Assembly (NCBI GenBank): GCA_002170165.1
Contig: NHFY01000094.1
Span: forward strand, 100,486-164,485
Direction of reading: 5' to 3'
Length of the DNA: 64,000 bases
Origin: Flavobacteriales bacterium TMED123
GTDB taxonomy: Bacteria > Bacteroidota > Bacteroidia > Flavobacteriales > BACL11
In this document: positions 24,543-34,144 of the stretch, one piece after another
Position numbering within the stretch: position 1 is the stretch's first letter
How the letters are laid out: each line of letters begins with the position of its first letter
Notes under the pieces: generated by a model
What the model was told of the DNA's origin: nothing
The model's input: only the letters and a program-made list of their open reading frames with translations
The model's database searches: none
Position numbers and translations under genes: made by a program

Positions 24543-24953
24543 CTAATTATAGATATAAAGAAAATCACCCGATAAATTGTTTGGATATTGTTTTAGAGGT
24601 AGTAGGGCAGGACCATCAATTGTTTGTCCTTCTTGCCCTAGTAGAAACTTTGAATCACAACAGCTGCATATTGCAATACTCGAATTTACTGAGTCAATTT
24701 TAGCACAATTCAAGGAAGGTTGATAGGTGCAATTTCTGTCATAAGTTTTATATATATCAAAAGATTGATGATAAACAATAATTCCTTTTACACCTCCATT
24801 AATAAAAACATGGCTGCCAACTGTTTGTAATTTTGAAAGCTCAGGTAAAGTCAAATTTAAGTCAATATCCACTATTACATTTTGCACATAATCTTCTTCC
24901 TTTTGGCAAGAAAAAAACAGTAAGCAAATAAGGGTTAAAAATCTAATTTTCAT
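24543..24953 (-). CDS. Lipoprotein with Rieske-like but histidine-free cysteine motifs
   Basis: A protein of 136 residues. Lipobox LFFSC puts the lipidated Cys at 16. The layout after the first 50 residues follows Rieske domains: a strand with IIVYHQSFDIYKTYDRNC, a first box C75-T-Y77...C83, a second box C96-S-C98-C99-D-S-K-F, then GPALLPLKQY. In genuine Rieske proteins the boxes read CxH and CxxH; here Tyr77 and Cys99 stand in the His places. Homologues in flavobacteria are, as I recall, often labelled ferredoxin subunit. Cluster binding is unproven; it would need all-Cys ligation. Confidence 0.75.
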   Translation of the reverse strand: MKIRFLTLICLLFFSCQKEEDYVQNVIVDIDLNLTLPELSKLQTVGSHVFINGGVKGIIVYHQSFDIYKTYDRNCTYQPSLNCAKIDSVNSSIAICSCCDSKFLLGQEGQTIDGPALLPLKQYPNNLSGDFLYIYN

Positions 24954-25095: not shown

Positions 25096-28000
25096 ATGTT
25101 AAGAAAAATATACTTACTTTTTGCTACTGTCCTTATCTCGACAGTTGGCTTCGCGCAAACAGGCACTCTAAAAGGTACTGTATTGGATGCTATAAGTGGA
25201 GAGGTTATTCCTTTTGCCAATGTTGTTATTGAAAGAAACGGAAGTCAAACGGCAGGAACAACAACCGATTTTGATGGAAAATTTACCATCAAGCCAATTG
25301 ATCCAGGAACTTATACGGTAAAAGCAACTTTTGTTGGTTATCAAACTTATATGATGACCGGGCTGATTATTTCAGCCAATAAAATTACTTTCCAAGATTT
25401 AAAATTATCATCTGGTATTCAAAAAGATGAAATTACAATTGTAGAGTATAAAAAACCACTTATTGATCAAGACAATATAACTGGAGAAACAAAAACAGCT
25501 GAAGAAATTGTAGCTATGCCAACAAGAAGTGTTGCTTCTGTTGCGGCAACAACTGCTGGTATTTATCAAAGAGATGAAGGAGAATCCTTAAATGTTAGGG
25601 GTTCGCGTTCAGATGCAACTGACTATTATATTGACGGTATTAAAGTAAGAGGTAGTTTAGGAGTTCCTCAATCAGCTATTGAACAAATTACAGTAATGAC
25701 AGGTGGATTACCCGCACAATATGGTGATGCAACTGCTGGTATTATTTCCATTACCACTAAAGGTCCTTCTAACAAGTTTTTTGGAGGTGCTGAGTTAGAG
25801 TCTTCTTCTTTGTTTGATAAATACAATAAAAACATTTTTGGACTTAATTTATCAGGACCAATTCTAAAGAAAAGAAATGATGATGGTACAAAAGGTAATT
25901 CCGTTATTGGTTATTTCTTCTCAGGTGAATTTAGAATGGTAGATGATTCTGATCCTTCTGCAATTGGCAACTGGAAAGTGAAAGATAATGTGTTGGCCGA
26001 TTTAAAAGCTAACCCATTTAGACCAGCTCCTAATGTTTCAGCAGGATTTTTGCAAAATGCAGAATTTGTAACAATGGATGATTTGGAAAAAGTACAGGCA
26101 CGACAAAATGTTGCACAAAAAAGAATTTCTGTCTCTGGAAAATTGGATTTCAAACCTACTAAAAACACTTATTTATCCTTAGGTGGGAATTATTACTATA
26201 ATAGAGGGCACTCTTACACAAGGACTTATTCTTTATTCAATTCTAATAATAATGCAGAAAGTATCAGTAATACTTGGAGGGTGTTTGGAAAATTAACGCA
26301 AAAGTTTGGTAATCAAGAAGCTGATGATGATGAAAGTGCATCAATTATTAAAAATGCCTTTTTTACCATTCAAGGAGATTATACTAGAAACGAATACACC
26401 ACGCAAGATGACTCTCACAATGAAAACATTTTTGATTATGGTTATATAGGAAAATTCAAGACCTACAAACAAAACATATACGATTTCGGAGAAATTTATG
26501 ACACAACAAGAAATACTTATTTCACAGGACAAATACATTCTGGTTGGACAGATACACTTTATACCTTTAAGGAAGCAAGTATAAATCCTGATGCAGCTGT
26601 TTACACTTCAAAGTACTATGATATGTTTGAGGACTATGGAATGACTTCATATATTGATGGTTATGGTATGGATGGCGTTATCCGTACACCATTGGATTTG
26701 CAAGGGGTTGGACTTAGAAATGGCGAACGCTCACAATCGGTTTATTCACTTTGGTATCCTTTTGGAAGAGAGTATAATTATTATGGATATTCTTATTACA
26801 GCCAAAGTACATTTAAGGCTTCTGGTTCTGCCGATATTAAAGATCATGAGCTTTCTTTTGGAATGGAGTATGAGCAAAGAACAGATGCTTCTTGGGGAGT
26901 TAATCCTGTAGGACTTTGGGGATTGATGAGACTATTGACAAATAAACACCTAACACAATTGGATTTAAACAACCCTCATCCAGTGTTTGATGAAAATGGT
27001 ATTTATAAAGATACCGTGAATTACGACCGCCTTTATGTAGCGGAAGAACAAGCTGAATTCGATAGAAATTTAAGAAATAAATTAAATAAAGGCAAAGTTG
27101 AATGGATTGATGTAGATTCTTATACCCCTGATGTATTTGATTTGAGTTATTTTTCAGCTGATGAACTGCTTAATGATGGAGGTTCTTATGTGAGCTATGC
27201 TGGATATGATTATTTAGGGAAAAGGTATGCAACTAACAAACAGCCTACATTTAAAGATTTCTTGACTGAGACAGACGGAAGGGGAAATCATACGAGACCA
27301 ATTGCTGCATTCCAACCTATCTATACTGCTGGTTATTTGCAAGATAAATTTGCTATTGAAGATCTTATTTTCAATGTAGGTGTAAGGGTTGATAGATATG
27401 ATGCCAATCAGCTAGTACTAAAAGACAAATATTTGTTGTATGATACTTATACAGCTAACTCATCAAAAGCTAGAGAATTAGGTAGTTTATCACAATTTGG
27501 AGGATCACACTATGTGTATGTTGATGATCTTGAAAACCCATCCTCAATTGTTGGGTATAGGAGTGGAGATACTTGGTATGATGAAACAGGATCAGAAATA
27601 TCTACTCCTGATGTACTGATAACAGCTGCAGGTGGAAAAATAGCACCACTTGTAAAAAATAGCACTGCAGCACTAAATGGAGATTTGAGCACAGATGCAT
27701 TTAAGGATTACGATCCGCAAACCGTAATTATGCCAAGAATTGCTTTTTCTTTCCCTATATCTGATGAGGCGCAATTTTTTGCGCATTATGATGTACTTAC
27801 ACAAAGACCTCCTGAAAGAAGTAATTTTAATCCAACAGAATACTATTTTTTAGAGCAGAATATTGGAGGTTTATTGAATAATCCAGATTTGAAACCAGAA
27901 AAAACGGTTGATTATGAAATAGGATTTGCACAAACCCTATCGTTAAAATCAGCACTTACTATTTCTCTTTTCTACAAAGAATTAAGAGATATGATACAAG

Positions 28001-28776
28001 TTATGAACTTACCAGGAGCTTACCCTGGCAGATACATGACTATGCAAAATTTGGATTTTGGGACGGTTAAAGGCTTATCAGTAGCCTATGATTTAAGAAG
28101 AACCAATAATGTGGCGCTTACAGCAAATTATACGCTACAATTTGCTGATGGAACAGGCTCTTCTGCTACTTCAGGCTATAGCTTGGCCAATACTGAACAG
28201 CCAAACTTAAGAACAATGACGCCACTTTCTTTTGACCAAAGACATACTATTTCCTTATCGGTTGATTTCCATTATGGAGCAGGCAAAGACTATAATGGTC
28301 CCGTATTATTTGGTAAAAAGATTTTTGAAAGAGCTGGCTTTAATGCATTGCTTTCGGCAGGTTCTGGTACGCCATATAGCAAACAATCTAATATAACGCA
28401 AGAGGCTGCTTTTGGTATTAACGATCGTTCTACTTTAGAAGGTACACTTTATGGCTCTCGTTTGCCTTGGCAGTCTAGAGTAAGTGCTAAGATTAATAAA
28501 GAATTTGAAATAAAATGGAATGATAAAAAAAACTCGTATGTAAATGTATATTTACAAGTGCAAAATCTGTTTAACGCTAAGAATATTATAAACGTTTATA
28601 GAGCTACAGGAAATCCTGATGATGACGGTTATCTTTCAGCATCTGCATCTCAAAATGAGATTAACACAACAAATAATCCTGAATCATTTGTGGACCTTTA
28701 TAGGATTAAGGTAGACAATCCTTCTCATTATTCTTTGCCAAGAATGATGAATTTAGGATTAACTATTAGTTTCTAA
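25096..28776 (+). CDS. Large TonB-dependent receptor with carboxypeptidase-like N-terminal domain
   Basis: A protein of 1226 residues. Signal peptide 1-20 (cleavage after GFAQ); carboxypeptidase-regulatory-like beta-sandwich about 22-110 (GTLKGTVLDAISGEVIPFANV, here cited as GTLKGTVLDAISGEV and PFANV); plug about 130-225 with SLNVRGSRSDATDYYIDGI; then a very large barrel that closes with PRMMNLGLTISF. It is more than 250 residues longer than usual SusC-like receptors, mostly in extracellular loops between about 440 and 860. No SusD partner follows; instead the next two genes encode a giant secreted protein and a PorV-like protein. Substrate unknown. Confidence 0.92.
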   Translation: MLRKIYLLFATVLISTVGFAQTGTLKGTVLDAISGEVIPFANVVIERNGSQTAGTTTDFDGKFTIKPIDPGTYTVKATFVGYQTYMMTGLIISANKITFQDLKLSSGIQKDEITIVEYKKPLIDQDNITGETKTAEEIVAMPTRSVASVAATTAGIYQRDEGESLNVRGSRSDATDYYIDGIKVRGSLGVPQSAIEQITVMTGGLPAQYGDATAGIISITTKGPSNKFFGGAELESSSLFDKYNKNIFGLNLSGPILKKRNDDGTKGNSVIGYFFSGEFRMVDDSDPSAIGNWKVKDNVLADLKANPFRPAPNVSAGFLQNAEFVTMDDLEKVQARQNVAQKRISVSGKLDFKPTKNTYLSLGGNYYYNRGHSYTRTYSLFNSNNNAESISNTWRVFGKLTQKFGNQEADDDESASIIKNAFFTIQGDYTRNEYTTQDDSHNENIFDYGYIGKFKTYKQNIYDFGEIYDTTRNTYFTGQIHSGWTDTLYTFKEASINPDAAVYTSKYYDMFEDYGMTSYIDGYGMDGVIRTPLDLQGVGLRNGERSQSVYSLWYPFGREYNYYGYSYYSQSTFKASGSADIKDHELSFGMEYEQRTDASWGVNPVGLWGLMRLLTNKHLTQLDLNNPHPVFDENGIYKDTVNYDRLYVAEEQAEFDRNLRNKLNKGKVEWIDVDSYTPDVFDLSYFSADELLNDGGSYVSYAGYDYLGKRYATNKQPTFKDFLTETDGRGNHTRPIAAFQPIYTAGYLQDKFAIEDLIFNVGVRVDRYDANQLVLKDKYLLYDTYTANSSKARELGSLSQFGGSHYVYVDDLENPSSIVGYRSGDTWYDETGSEISTPDVLITAAGGKIAPLVKNSTAALNGDLSTDAFKDYDPQTVIMPRIAFSFPISDEAQFFAHYDVLTQRPPERSNFNPTEYYFLEQNIGGLLNNPDLKPEKTVDYEIGFAQTLSLKSALTISLFYKELRDMIQVMNLPGAYPGRYMTMQNLDFGTVKGLSVAYDLRRTNNVALTANYTLQFADGTGSSATSGYSLANTEQPNLRTMTPLSFDQRHTISLSVDFHYGAGKDYNGPVLFGKKIFERAGFNALLSAGSGTPYSKQSNITQEAAFGINDRSTLEGTLYGSRLPWQSRVSAKINKEFEIKWNDKKNSYVNVYLQVQNLFNAKNIINVYRATGNPDDDGYLSASASQNEINTTNNPESFVDLYRIKVDNPSHYSLPRMMNLGLTISF

Positions 28777-28786
28777 TTTAATAAAA

Positions 28787-31700
28787 ATGAAAGTAAAGAA
28801 AAATACAATATTTATGAAAAATAGAGTAAAACAACTTTTTGCTATTTCTCTTATATTAATATGTAATGATGTAATCGCAAAAGAGAATGTTGCTGATCCT
28901 GGAGTAAACACAGCTATTCAATCGAGGATTGCATCAGGATGTGCAAATGCTTCTTCACAAACTGATTTGGATGTGAATAATGTAAGGGCTACCATTTTAG
29001 GAGGTGGTGATATGTGGTGGGATTTGAATGATGCACAATATGAGGTGCCAAAAGGAAGTTTTAAAAATTCCTTGTTTGCTGGTGCACTTTGGATTGGTGG
29101 TGTTGATAATGGAGGACAATTAAAAGCAGCAGCACAAACCTATAGACAGTTTGGTGGTAACGATTTTTGGCCAGGTCCACTAGATATAAATACAGCTTCA
29201 ATTACTACTGAGGAATGCTTGGCATACAACAAACATTTCAAAATAGATCGTCCACAAGTAGATGAATTTATCGCAAGATATGTAACTGCACAAGATCCTA
29301 CTTATACTATTCCTGATGAAATTATTGATTGGCCAGCACATGGTGCTCCAGGGCAAGATCCTTACTTAGCACCATTCTATGATGCCAATGGAGATGGTTT
29401 TTACAATCCTTATGATGGGGATTACCCGGATTATAATGTCACAGGTAATAATACTAATAGCAAGCTTTATGGTGACCAAACGCTTTGGTGGGTATTTAAT
29501 GATAAAGGAGGAATACATACGGAAACTCAAGCTGAGCCTATTGGTTTAGAAATTCATGCACAAGCATTTGGTTTTGTGGCTGACAATGAGGTTAATGATA
29601 TGACATTTTACAATTACAAAATAATTAATCGAGGGACACAGCCCCTTACAAAGACTTATTTTGGACAATGGGTAGATCCTGATTTAGGATTCTATTTAGA
29701 TGATTATGTGGGTTGTGATGTTGGTTTAGGACTTGGATTTTGTTACAATGGAGACGCAGAAGATGAGGGTGCTTCAGGTTATGGATTTAATCCTCCAGCA
29801 ATTGGTGTAGATTTCTTTCAGGGGCCAAGAGCTGATGAGTTTGATCAACTTGATAACGATAGAGATGGTTTTATTGACGAGATGGATTCTGTTATTAATC
29901 CAGTAACTGGTCTGTGGGAATATACACAGTATGAGGAAATCATAATGTCTAAGTTTGTTTATTATAATAATAATACTACCGTAACAGGTAATCCTAGTAC
30001 AGGAACACATTTTTATAATTATTTACAAGGTATATGGAAAGATAATGTACCTATGACTTATGGAGGAGATGGAAAAGGAAATGGACCTGGAGCAACTACC
30101 GATTTATGTAATTTTATGTTCCCTGGTTCAACAGATCCTGATATGTATCCTCAAAATGGAGAATGGACTGAGGTAACAGCAGGGAATATTCCAGCTGACA
30201 GAAGATTCCTTCAGTCAGCAGGCCCATTTACTTTATCGCCAGGTGCAATTAATTATATTACTGTTGGTGTAGTTTGGGCAAGAGCTAAAGCAGGAGGCCC
30301 AACAGCTTCAGTACAATTATTAAAAGTATATGATAGAGAAGCGCAAGCACTTTTTGATAACAACTTTAATATCTTAAACGGACCTGACGCTCCCGATTTA
30401 ACAATTAGAGAATTGGATAAAGAATTGATTTTTTCCTTATCAAATGAGGAATCTTCGAATAACTATGAGGAATCCTATTCTGAAAAAGATCCGTACATCA
30501 CAAAACCAGATAATTTACTAAATAGTCCAAACTATGAATTCCAAGGTTATTTAGTGTATCAGTTAGTAGATGCTACAACTTCTGTTACTGATTTAGACGA
30601 TCCTGATAAAGCAAGATTGGTATTCAGATGTGATGTTAAAGATAATGTCACAACTATTGTAAATCAGTATTTAGATCCTGTTCTAGGTGTATACACTCCA
30701 GTAGAGGAAGTAAGTGGTGTATTGAGTGCTGGTATGAAAGGGTCAGTTGATAATGGAGTAGAGTATTCATTCAAAATTACTGAAGATCGATTTGCTTTAG
30801 GAAATACGCGACTGGTGAATCATAAAACTTACCATTATATGGCGCTTTCTTATGCATACAATATGGCAGAAGAGAATGCAGATCCTTATAATGTTGATGA
30901 TCCAGATTATGATGGTCGTAATCAGCCTTATATTGCAGGTAGAAGAAACATAGAAACATATAGTGTAATCCCTCATTTCACCGAGCCAGAAGCAGGAGGA
31001 ACCGTGCTGAATTCCGCTTATGGAGAAGGTGTGAAAATCCAAAGATTAGAAGGGACAGGAAATGGTAATACTGCCATGGAATTGTCAGATGAAACTATTA
31101 CGGAGATTCTCAATTCTTCTTCTCACCGTTCATTAAATCCGATTTACGAAAAAGGATTAGGGCCAATAAATGTTTCTGTGGTTGATCCTGTAGCAGTTAA
31201 AGAAGGTACTTATATTTTCAATTTAGAAGATCCTACTTACACCAATGTTCAGGGAGTTAGCACGATAACTTCTTATGGTAAATGGACGCTAACTAATGAA
31301 GCGACAGGCAATGAAGTAGCTTCATCTACAAAACCAATTGATTTAGGTTCAGAGAAACTAATTGGAAATACTGGATTTTCTATAAAAGTTCAGCAAGGTG
31401 TGAATCCAGCAGAAGACCCCACTATTGTTGCTGATAATGGTTTAATTTCATCTGCTATAGAATTTGAGAACATTAATGATAGATGGCTAACAGGAGTTCC
31501 TGATTATGATGATGAAAATGGATATATATGGGGGTTAAATTGGATAAGGGCTGGTTCTTTTGAAAATGATGACAACAGTTTGCTAAGTGATTATTCCGTG
31601 GATGATGATCCTAATGGTATTTATGAGACGGCTGTAGAGCGTAGTGCGGCAATACCGATTAATAATTTCTTTGGTGGAGGCAACTTTACATTAGAATATA

Positions 31701-33058
31701 CTGGAGGAACTTGGGCACCTTATCATTTGGCTTCTGCGTATAAAGATGGTCCTGGCTATAGTAAATCTACTACCGATCAAGTAAAAATGGCTGATTTACA
31801 TTCTGTTGATATTGTTTTTACAGACGAAAAGTCCCAGTGGTCCAAATGTGTAGTGGTTGAAGCCAATGAAAACAATCCAAATTATGGGGGTGATCCTTTG
31901 CTTGCAGAAGGTGGTCAAATCAAAATGGGATTACGACTAAAACCTTCTGTTGATAAAAATGGTAATACACTAAATGATGGCACTATGGGCATGAGTTGGT
32001 TCCCTGGCTATGCAATTGATATAGAGACAGGAGAAAGATTAAATATCATCTTTGCAGAAGATTCACATTTATCTGAAGATAATGGTAGGGATTTGAAATG
32101 GAATCCTACTTCAAATATTGTTACTTCTCAGGCGCCAATGTACGACCCTCAGTCTAGTACTTTCTATCAAGGGTCTTATCTGTTAGGCGGTAAGCATTTT
32201 ATTTATGTAATTAAAGGATCTGCTGCTGTAAAAAAAGATAGTACTTATCTTGATGGTACAGAAAGTCCGAATTATGATGAATGTGCTTGGATTTACAATC
32301 AGTTAAAAAATTATGTTTTACCTACAGGACAACCAAATCCTGGCTATTCGGCAAACATCTGGCAAGTGTTTCGTAATGCTTCATGGGTAGGCATGCCTAT
32401 TCTTAGTCCAGGTCGTACACTTTTAGCTAATGATGCTACAGTTAAGTTAAGGGTAAGCAAGCCTTACAGGCAATACGTTACTAGAGATGCATCTGCTATT
32501 TTAGACAAAGATGATGATCTTGTATTAGGCTCAACTTATTTTCTAATGGGTGCAAATATTAGTCATAATGGAAATCAGTATGCTCCTGGCGATACTTTTA
32601 CTGCAATGAGCACTTCTTTCTCCGGTAGTAGTAATGCAAGAGCGGTAAGTCCAATTCCAAATAACGAATTTAGTGCTAGGTATCGTTTTTCAACATCTGA
32701 CATAGTTGCTGAGAAAGGAGACCATAAAACAGCTGTCGATGCATTGGACATGATTAATGTAGTGCCTAATCCTTATTATGCTTATTCTACTTACGAAACA
32801 TCTCAGCTCGATAATAGAATTAAAATTACAAATCTTCCTAGAAGAGCCACTATTTCAATTTACACTATCAGTGGAACTTTAGTAAGACAAATAAAAAAGA
32901 ATGATAAACTGACATCAGTCGATTGGAATTTAAAAAATACTTTTGGTATTCCCGTTGCATCAGGGCTTTATGTGATACATGTTGATGCAAAAGGGGTGGG
33001 CGAAAGAGTGCTTAAATGGTTTGGTGTAATGCGACCTATTGACCTTGATACTTTCTAA
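28787..33058 (+). CDS. Giant secreted protein with calcium-loop motifs and C-terminal T9SS/FlgD-like domain
   Basis: A protein of 1423 residues. The N-terminus carries a signal peptide; ATG at 28787 or 28814 are both possible, and the latter gives a tidier one (MKNRVKQLFAISLILIC). Two EF-hand-like loops are seen: DANGDGFYNPYDGD (199-212) and DNDRDGFIDEMDS (356-368). The middle is a series of beta-rich, Asn/Gly-rich segments I cannot assign. The last 100 residues start NVVPNPYYAYS and continue ISIYTISGTLVRQI to KWFGVMRP, a FlgD-Ig / type A sorting-domain-like module. It lies 10 bp after the TonB receptor and 12 bp before a PorV-like gene. It is likely a surface protein working with the receptor; function unknown. 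Confidence 0.85.
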   Translation: MKVKKNTIFMKNRVKQLFAISLILICNDVIAKENVADPGVNTAIQSRIASGCANASSQTDLDVNNVRATILGGGDMWWDLNDAQYEVPKGSFKNSLFAGALWIGGVDNGGQLKAAAQTYRQFGGNDFWPGPLDINTASITTEECLAYNKHFKIDRPQVDEFIARYVTAQDPTYTIPDEIIDWPAHGAPGQDPYLAPFYDANGDGFYNPYDGDYPDYNVTGNNTNSKLYGDQTLWWVFNDKGGIHTETQAEPIGLEIHAQAFGFVADNEVNDMTFYNYKIINRGTQPLTKTYFGQWVDPDLGFYLDDYVGCDVGLGLGFCYNGDAEDEGASGYGFNPPAIGVDFFQGPRADEFDQLDNDRDGFIDEMDSVINPVTGLWEYTQYEEIIMSKFVYYNNNTTVTGNPSTGTHFYNYLQGIWKDNVPMTYGGDGKGNGPGATTDLCNFMFPGSTDPDMYPQNGEWTEVTAGNIPADRRFLQSAGPFTLSPGAINYITVGVVWARAKAGGPTASVQLLKVYDREAQALFDNNFNILNGPDAPDLTIRELDKELIFSLSNEESSNNYEESYSEKDPYITKPDNLLNSPNYEFQGYLVYQLVDATTSVTDLDDPDKARLVFRCDVKDNVTTIVNQYLDPVLGVYTPVEEVSGVLSAGMKGSVDNGVEYSFKITEDRFALGNTRLVNHKTYHYMALSYAYNMAEENADPYNVDDPDYDGRNQPYIAGRRNIETYSVIPHFTEPEAGGTVLNSAYGEGVKIQRLEGTGNGNTAMELSDETITEILNSSSHRSLNPIYEKGLGPINVSVVDPVAVKEGTYIFNLEDPTYTNVQGVSTITSYGKWTLTNEATGNEVASSTKPIDLGSEKLIGNTGFSIKVQQGVNPAEDPTIVADNGLISSAIEFENINDRWLTGVPDYDDENGYIWGLNWIRAGSFENDDNSLLSDYSVDDDPNGIYETAVERSAAIPINNFFGGGNFTLEYTGGTWAPYHLASAYKDGPGYSKSTTDQVKMADLHSVDIVFTDEKSQWSKCVVVEANENNPNYGGDPLLAEGGQIKMGLRLKPSVDKNGNTLNDGTMGMSWFPGYAIDIETGERLNIIFAEDSHLSEDNGRDLKWNPTSNIVTSQAPMYDPQSSTFYQGSYLLGGKHFIYVIKGSAAVKKDSTYLDGTESPNYDECAWIYNQLKNYVLPTGQPNPGYSANIWQVFRNASWVGMPILSPGRTLLANDATVKLRVSKPYRQYVTRDASAILDKDDDLVLGSTYFLMGANISHNGNQYAPGDTFTAMSTSFSGSSNARAVSPIPNNEFSARYRFSTSDIVAEKGDHKTAVDALDMINVVPNPYYAYSTYETSQLDNRIKITNLPRRATISIYTISGTLVRQIKKNDKLTSVDWNLKNTFGIPVASGLYVIHVDAKGVGERVLKWFGVMRPIDLDTF

Positions 33059-33070
33059 ATTATAGATAAA

Positions 33071-34144
33071 ATGAATACAACTCAAATGAATAGAATAAAC
33101 AATTGGCTAAAAGTCATCATGATTGTAGCCCTTATTACAATCCCAGTGAAAGAAAATTTTGCAGGAAATGAGCAAAGGGCTGGTCAATCAGGTGCTTCCG
33201 AATTATTGATTAACCCATGGGCAAGAAGTTCAGGATGGGCAGGAGCAAATGTTGCTTGTGTTAGAGGGCTTGAAGGTATGTATAATAATGTGGCAGGTTT
33301 GGCGTTTACACCAAAAACAGAGCTTATTTTCTCCCGCACCAATTGGCTAACTTATGGCGATAATGAGGCAGTGAGCTACATCAACACTTTCGGATTTTCT
33401 CAGAAAGTTGGAGAGTCAGGAGTTTTGGCACTTGGTATCATGTCTTTGGATTTTGGAGAAATTGAAATTACAACTGAAGAGCTTCCTGATGGCGGTATTG
33501 GAACATTTTCTCCTAAATTTATGAATATAGGGGTCTCTTATGCCAAGACATTTTCTAATAGTATTTACGGTGGATTTACCTTAAAGATGGTATCAGAACA
33601 AATATCAAACGTTCGTGCTGGAGGGGTCGCTTTTGATGCAGGTATTCAATATGTAACAGGAACAAAAGACAATTTGAGATTTGGTATATCATTAAAAAAT
33701 GTTGGGCCAAGAATGAGTTTTTCTGGTGATGGACTTACTTTTAGAGAGTATGTAGATCCTAATTATCAGATGGCAGTAAGCCATAAGTCAGCTGAATTTG
33801 AATTACCATCTCTACTGAATATTGGGCTTTCGTACGATATACATTATTTAAGACATAGATTAACTGGAGCAGGCACATTTACTTCAAATGCTTTCCAGAA
33901 GGATCAGTATCGCTTAGGTTGTGAGTACTCTTTTAAGGATTTGTTTATGGTAAGGTGTGGATATACTATGGAAGAAGGTATTAGAACGCCATCAACAAGA
34001 ACAACTGCCCTAAGAGGGCCAAGCGGTGGTTTTACCATTGAAATTCCAATGGGAGGAGGGAAAACCTTTGGTGTAGATTATTCTTACCGACATACCGATC
34101 CTTTCCAAGGTTCGCACTCATTTGGCGCCAGAATAAACCTCTAA
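33071..34144 (+). CDS. PorV/PorQ-family outer-membrane beta-barrel protein
   Basis: A protein of 357 residues: signal sequence (about 10-32), then GASELLINPWARSSGWAGA, the PorV/PorQ-type start that leads into NNVAGLAF. A 14-strand FadL-like barrel follows and ends in HSFGARINL. PorV is the T9SS shuttle that carries cargo from the translocon to the attachment complex; PorQ and similar paralogues serve in related steps. Encoded next to a giant protein with a sorting-like C-terminus, this one may be a dedicated partner rather than the general PorV (inference). Confidence 0.85.
   Translation: MNTTQMNRINNWLKVIMIVALITIPVKENFAGNEQRAGQSGASELLINPWARSSGWAGANVACVRGLEGMYNNVAGLAFTPKTELIFSRTNWLTYGDNEAVSYINTFGFSQKVGESGVLALGIMSLDFGEIEITTEELPDGGIGTFSPKFMNIGVSYAKTFSNSIYGGFTLKMVSEQISNVRAGGVAFDAGIQYVTGTKDNLRFGISLKNVGPRMSFSGDGLTFREYVDPNYQMAVSHKSAEFELPSLLNIGLSYDIHYLRHRLTGAGTFTSNAFQKDQYRLGCEYSFKDLFMVRCGYTMEEGIRTPSTRTTALRGPSGGFTIEIPMGGGKTFGVDYSYRHTDPFQGSHSFGARINL

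Follow-up and report, generated by a model that had tools for sequence, protein, structure and literature searches.

A conserved TonB-dependent receptor, giant exported protein and PorV/PorQ-family barrel in Bacteroidota: a possible T9SS-delivered counterpart of SusCD

Introduction

SusCD systems are well-known nutrient-capture systems, and to our knowledge PorV and PorQ are known solely from the machinery that secretes and attaches proteins. A locus in which a TonB-dependent receptor, a giant exported protein and a member of the PorV/PorQ family are encoded side by side raises the question of whether the three products form one surface machine and, if so, what the barrel contributes to it. 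No description of such a trio was found in the open-access literature searched.

From a mechanistic point of view, there are precedents for pairs of a T9SS cargo and a barrel, namely PorU:PorV and PorZ:PorQ (PMC5562754), PorU and PorZ being the known T9SS cargoes whose CTD is retained and which PorV and PorQ, respectively, hold in place (PMC5562754; PMC10202324). Type B CTD cargoes with dedicated shuttles provide a further precedent (PMC12618676; PMC9143113), and a review has suggested that CTDs are shielded from cleavage by their cognate PorV-like barrels (PMC10202324).

Results

The three-gene block

The window, that is, the whole stretch of 64,000 nucleotides of Flavobacteriales bacterium TMED123 that was analysed, contains three consecutive ORFs on one strand:

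25096-28776, + strand: TonB-dependent receptor (TBDT), ORF of 1226 aa (ORF list; Pfam; upstream of the giant in 72/80 named-genome loci)
28787-33058, + strand: giant exported protein, ORF of 1423 aa (ORF list; 22 aligned full-length orthologues; SprA co-occurrence)
33071-34144, + strand: PorV/PorQ-family barrel, ORF of 357 aa (NF033709 match; PorV relatives by structure; own clade)

The gaps are 10 bp between receptor and giant and 12 bp between giant and barrel, and the positions, lengths and gaps given in a first-pass annotation of this DNA match the ORF calls exactly. A Sec-type signal sequence can be read on all three proteins. From the gene spacing we infer a single transcript, and the statement stays at that level because a scan for promoters and terminators of the sigma-70 type found sites no more numerous than in shuffles.

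Divergent from the trio lies a small lipoprotein-like ORF (24543-24953, - strand), which occupies the same position in many Flavobacteriales and Bacteroidales loci and has 52 distinct homologues. It carries a Rieske-like pattern with conserved cysteines at the Rieske histidine positions, and its product may be an Fe-S lipoprotein of a non-canonical kind that is connected with the trio.

The receptor

Three domains of the receptor were recognized above their Pfam gathering scores:

Receptor residues 24-104: CarboxypepD_reg domain (PF13620)
Receptor residues 133-215: plug (PF07715)
Receptor, running to the C-terminus: beta-barrel (PF00593)

This is the architecture of the Oar subclass of TBDTs. 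The SusC/RagA models of NCBIfam gave zero matches to the receptor at E up to 1, so that SusC identity was ruled out and the SusC label of the first-pass annotation had to be given up, and with it the puzzle of a missing SusD. Within the three-gene block there is indeed no SusD-like gene, but this is no anomaly, since the receptor is Oar-type and matches no SusC model; in the window's genome, whose assembly is 74% complete, PF07980 (SusD) had no match either. The likeness to Oar of Myxococcus xanthus lies in the sequence of CarboxypepD_reg, plug and barrel; in contrast to the window receptor, Oar has no known PorV-family or T9SS partner, and the shared architecture does not imply a secretion role here.

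Conservation of the gene order

The giant was present in 78 of 119 relatives, as a rule in a single copy per genome, with full-length identities of 60-66% within the window's family and about 40-53% across the order. In this family of small genomes (about 1.5-2 Mb), the window copy is kept in all those that are at least 90% complete, and every member without the giant falls below 90%; because it is kept despite such small genomes, the function of the trio is probably important. The sampled genomes of one group, Flavobacteriaceae-like by guess, lack the giant.

When 80 named-genome loci were gathered with the giant alone from Flavobacteriales, Bacteroidales and Chitinophagales assemblies, TBDT, giant and PorV-family gene were found immediately adjacent and in this order in 71 of them, with greA next in 64. 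The same order holds for 31/32 order-level loci (greA next in 31), for all six class-level loci (greA next in 6) and for 13/14 loci from other classes, where greA is next in 0. The trio block is thus conserved far beyond chance. In Bacteroidia, the flanking housekeeping genes greA, HIT, ruvC and ahcY are also syntenic. A search for this gene order across Bacteroidota had been proposed in the first-pass annotation, which mentioned similar triads in other members of the phylum and would have taken the lack of a conserved neighbourhood as a refutation. The neighbourhood is clearly conserved, and what is new is the phylum-wide spread of the order and its multiple copies outside class Bacteroidia.

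Some loci depart from this arrangement. Solo giants without a barrel neighbour make up 9 of the 80 named loci, and solo giants that lack the receptor as well are among the loci seen; most genomes with solo giants carry a window-type barrel elsewhere, and in two genomes none was found. Such solo giants may share a barrel encoded elsewhere, as orphan cargoes of type B do in F. johnsoniae. A Bacteroidales locus, moreover, has a second giant of 1370 aa after the barrel gene, in the order TBDT, giant, barrel, giant, greA.

Dependence on the T9SS

A match to the giant or its CTD was found in 139 of 295 other genomes; for some of those from other classes, it is mainly the CTD that makes the genome count as a carrier. 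SprA was present in 139/139 of these carriers, and none of the 68 SprA-negative genomes had such a match (Fisher 2.6e-23). In the window's own genome, with its 74% complete assembly, SprA had no match, but it is encoded by each of the 15 family members with a complete genome. The strict co-occurrence with SprA, together with the homology of the CTD, argues for export of the giant via the T9SS, as the first-pass annotation had supposed.

The giant and its C-terminal domain

The probable true start of the giant is codon 10 (28814), where most orthologues begin, which would leave about 1414 aa. The 22 sequences of alignment A1 are full-length orthologues with 40-78% identity. The following features are discussed below:

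29381-29416, + strand: calcium-binding-like loop 1, giant residues 199-210, DANGDGFYNPYD (DxDGDGxYxPxxGDYP kept in alignment A1; putative Ca site)
29852-29887, + strand: calcium-binding-like loop 2, giant residues 356-367, DNDRDGFIDEMD (DGIDNDRDGxIDE kept in alignment A1; putative Ca site)
32654-33055, + strand: atypical CTD, the giant's final 134 aa (relatives: the CTDs that PorZ and PorU retain)
33032-33055, + strand: extra C-terminal tail RPIDLDTF, conserved, missing from the type A CTD paralogues

The two EF-hand-like loops had already been noticed in the first reading of the sequence; they are present, and their motifs are kept across the family alignment. No Pfam domain reached its cut-off in the giant, whose resemblance to sorting domains is restricted to the C-terminus, and profile searches matched no recognised enzyme or ligand domain. 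A model of the ectodomain (1198 residues) reached a pLDDT of 81 and a pTM of 0.61, and Foldseek returned weak partial matches to it (TM about 0.15-0.2), among them beta-rich parts of glycoside hydrolases and phosphorylases of the dextran dextrinase, GH116, GH94 and GH65 types. As a weak lead only, these model-based matches would point to a carbohydrate as the ligand.

The C-terminus proved to be sorting-like, as first described, in its resemblance to CTDs, but not at the level of a type A domain. The best CTD match of the window giant is the PorZ model NF052228 (33.3 bits, residues 1306-1400), its FlgD_ig match lies under the gathering score, and type A was ruled out as its cargo class, the score against the type A sorting model TIGR04183 being 20.5 bits versus a cut-off of 23. 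Type B was ruled out as well, since CHU_C gave no match at E up to 1 and the PorP/SprF model gave only 15 bits for the shuttle (cut-off 90.55). Among the 22 members of the giant family, the PorZ model was matched by 12, the PorU model by 2 and TIGR04183, at E up to 0.01, by 17. The CTD is thus of the PorZ/PorU type, with PorZ as the best match in the window giant and most paralogue cargoes, the matches being partial and confined to the CTD. Giants of the window type also have in common the additional tail, which reads RPxDLxxF or nearly so.

Proteins of about 500-740 aa also contain the giant's N-terminal region; they form a secreted family of their own that has no Pfam name. Five of these N-domain paralogues (510-566 aa) were scanned and have true type A CTDs (27-46 bits). 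Short paralogues of 500-570 aa, which have only the N-terminal region in common with the giant, lack the extra tail and have no PorV-family neighbour, and therefore serve as an internal control for the pairing of atypical CTD and barrel. By analogy with PorU and PorZ, and in line with the structure prediction described next, the CTD of the giant would be retained rather than cleaved.

The barrel and its predicted docking

The assignment of the third gene to a dedicated PorV-family member was borne out: the barrel scores 138.6 bits with the PorV/PorQ subfamily model NF033709 (cut-off 90) and stays below the equivalog cut-offs for PorV and PorQ (65.3 and 71.9 bits against 250 and 220, respectively). 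It is a barrel of the 14-strand type, and its best solved relative is PorV (6h3i_F). Since a true PorV and a true PorQ are encoded elsewhere in the window's genome (assembly 74% complete), the window barrel is a third member of the family. In a quick tree, the window-type barrels group together whatever their class (100% SH-aLRT), and this clade is distinct from PorV, from PorQ and from the barrels of other trios. On the basis of the curated cut-offs and this tree, its identity as PorV, PorQ or PorV2 was ruled out.

The giant and barrel genes lie in the same frame, and the construct that was folded runs from the CTD through the stop codon, read as Ser, into the barrel. AlphaFold2 was supplied with 88 related sequences, 28 of which are also naturally in-frame pairs, and folded the CTD-barrel chain, with the cognate barrel only, at a pLDDT of 91 and a pTM of 0.86. 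The barrel accounts for about 65% of this chain, so that an unplaced CTD is estimated to keep the pTM near 0.65, and the value obtained, 0.86 versus about 0.65, therefore speaks for a confident relative placement. The CTD is thus predicted to dock on its cognate barrel, with an interface read from pTM alone. Residue covariation between CTD and barrel showed no excess over the CTD-GreA or CTD-HIT controls. The top Foldseek match is 8gl6_F, a PorV chain from the structure of a T9SS complex with bound substrate. Also among the matches is 9n2d_B, from a complex with BamH in which a FadL-type barrel holds a large extracellular protein over another barrel; this likeness is a general fold resemblance only, and, in contrast to the giant, BamH is a lipoprotein, in a complex that folds outer-membrane proteins.

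Multi-copy trios outside Bacteroidia

T9SS-positive Bacteroidia have 3-6 PorV/PorQ-family genes per genome, and genomes outside this class have 3-26, with a median of 12. The surroundings of such genes were sampled in 40 loci from six other-class genomes, and these loci contain 42 PorV-family genes. The exact order of TBDT, CTD cargo and PorV-family gene was found for 31 of the 42, with gaps of -32 to 103 bp. Among the other 11, some are trios that escaped detection because start codons overlap, and in three the cargo precedes the receptor. In these three variants other genes lie between cargo and receptor, and the PorV-family gene directly follows the receptor. The cargoes of the other-class trios measure 699-1285 aa and combine differing ectodomains with CTDs that resemble those of PorZ and PorU.

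Co-diversification was tested on the 31 paralogous trios by permuting the partners within each genome (5000 permutations). Pairwise distances correlated between TBDT and ectodomain (r 0.871), TBDT and barrel (r 0.845) and CTD and barrel (r 0.772), values reached in 0/5000 permutations in each case; the correlations of permuted partners had means near 0.04 and maxima below 0.6. Within a genome, receptor, cargo and barrel genes thus diversify together as one unit. For receptor and ectodomain, the partial r given GreA and HIT is 0.87. Because the window-type barrels of all classes cluster apart from those of other trios, the window trio is seen as one ancient orthologue of a larger set.

Between classes, the counts of PorV-family genes (Mann-Whitney p 1e-5) and of SusD (p 3e-4) both differ, SusD being less frequent in the PorV-rich classes. 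Within the other classes, SusD and PorV-family counts showed no significant correlation (Spearman -0.12). The anticorrelation is confounded with class and was dropped as proof of replacement.

Discussion

The reading that we consider rather likely is that the giant is a surface partner, delivered by the T9SS and anchored on the barrel, which serves the TBDT. The giant would be exported by Sec and then, by means of its CTD, through the T9SS translocon SprA. The retained CTD would dock on the dedicated barrel, which would collect the giant at the translocon and stay with it as its membrane anchor, as suggested by the predicted docking and by analogy with PorU:PorV, PorZ:PorQ and SprB:SprF; the barrel is accordingly proposed as collector and anchor of the giant. 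At the surface, the ectodomain of about 1250 residues would serve the cognate TBDT as an extracellular capture subunit or lid, and the unit would work like SusCD, with a T9SS-delivered, barrel-anchored partner replacing the lipoprotein SusD. We infer this last step, including receptor contact and a substrate, from the invariant gene order, the co-inheritance and the co-diversification of the paralogous units; likewise, operon conservation and the co-diversification of the three genes are what suggest a placing of the giant next to the receptor by the barrel. In Bacteroidia, the window unit would be the single ancient copy kept beside greA, and other classes would have many paralogous units at work, whose ectodomains differ and presumably bind ligands that differ as well.

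Other explanations have to be weighed against this one. The giant might be a T9SS surface protein with a dedicated shuttle, such as an adhesin, a structural layer or a signalling protein, the receptor being a regulatory or assembly neighbour rather than part of a joint nutrient importer. Type B adhesins of F. johnsoniae have dedicated barrel shuttles too (PMC12618676), and the lack of a recognised enzyme or ligand domain fits such a role; however, the receptor is as conserved as the barrel, it co-diversifies most tightly with the ectodomain, both among the paralogues and in the partial correlation given GreA and HIT, and it is present in dozens of paralogous units, which makes a mere neighbour unlikely. 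A role of the receptor in exporting or placing the giant, with the unit as a secretion or assembly device and the TBDT as energised exporter or gate, finds a parallel in the Oar-type TBDT of Myxococcus, needed for PopC secretion (PMC6434023), whose domain architecture the window receptor shares. Yet this architecture is the commonest in Bacteroidota and no predictor of secretion, and the giant, with a T9SS-type CTD and its occurrence restricted to genomes with SprA, already has an export route, so that an exporter seems quite improbable.

It is also conceivable that three outer-membrane genes have simply been kept by an ancient operon structure beside greA and form no joint machine, given that greA, HIT, ruvC and ahcY are likewise syntenic in Bacteroidia. 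The trio, however, persists without greA in other classes and has many paralogues at other genomic sites, and these co-diversify far above the within-genome permutations; little credence is left for an explanation by neighbourhood. The favoured reading, that of a barrel-anchored partner of the receptor, is the one carried forward below.

Among known systems, the pairs PorU:PorV and PorZ:PorQ, which belong to the attachment complex of Porphyromonas gingivalis, resemble the trio in joining a T9SS cargo with a PorV/PorQ-family barrel, the giant's CTD being closest to those of PorZ and PorU and predicted to be retained and docked in a like manner. The trio differs in its cargo, in its barrel, which falls into neither the PorV nor the PorQ clade, and in the TBDT within the unit, and there is no sign of a lipopolysaccharide-attachment role. 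SprB:SprF and other type B/PorP-SprF pairs likewise consist of a large surface protein and a dedicated barrel encoded beside it, whereas the window barrel is of the PorV/PorQ family, the CTD has no CHU_C match and a receptor belongs to the unit. The likeness to SusCD and RagAB would be one of working principle, a TBDT with a large cognate partner outside the cell, both of which occur in multiple copies and diversify together in certain lineages; in contrast to these systems, the receptor is not of the SusC family, and its partner is neither a lipoprotein nor SusD but a T9SS-type protein with a separate barrel.

Finally, it is possible, and is put forward here as a tentative proposal, that trios of TBDT, retained-CTD cargo and PorV-family barrel constitute an undescribed, phylum-wide class of uptake machines, a T9SS-delivered counterpart of SusCD that dominates (about ten or more per genome) in SusD-poor classes and explains in general why the PorV/PorQ family has expanded. 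The members of this family would then act as dedicated anchors, every one of them belonging to a particular receptor and a particular exported surface protein. If this is true, the T9SS, besides its role in the secretion of enzymes and adhesins, builds nutrient-capture complexes; a receptor could be provided with an extracellular partner in two ways, SusD being one of them; and a testable role would be gained for many proteins whose names now say no more than "PorV/PorQ family" or "T9SS sorting domain protein".
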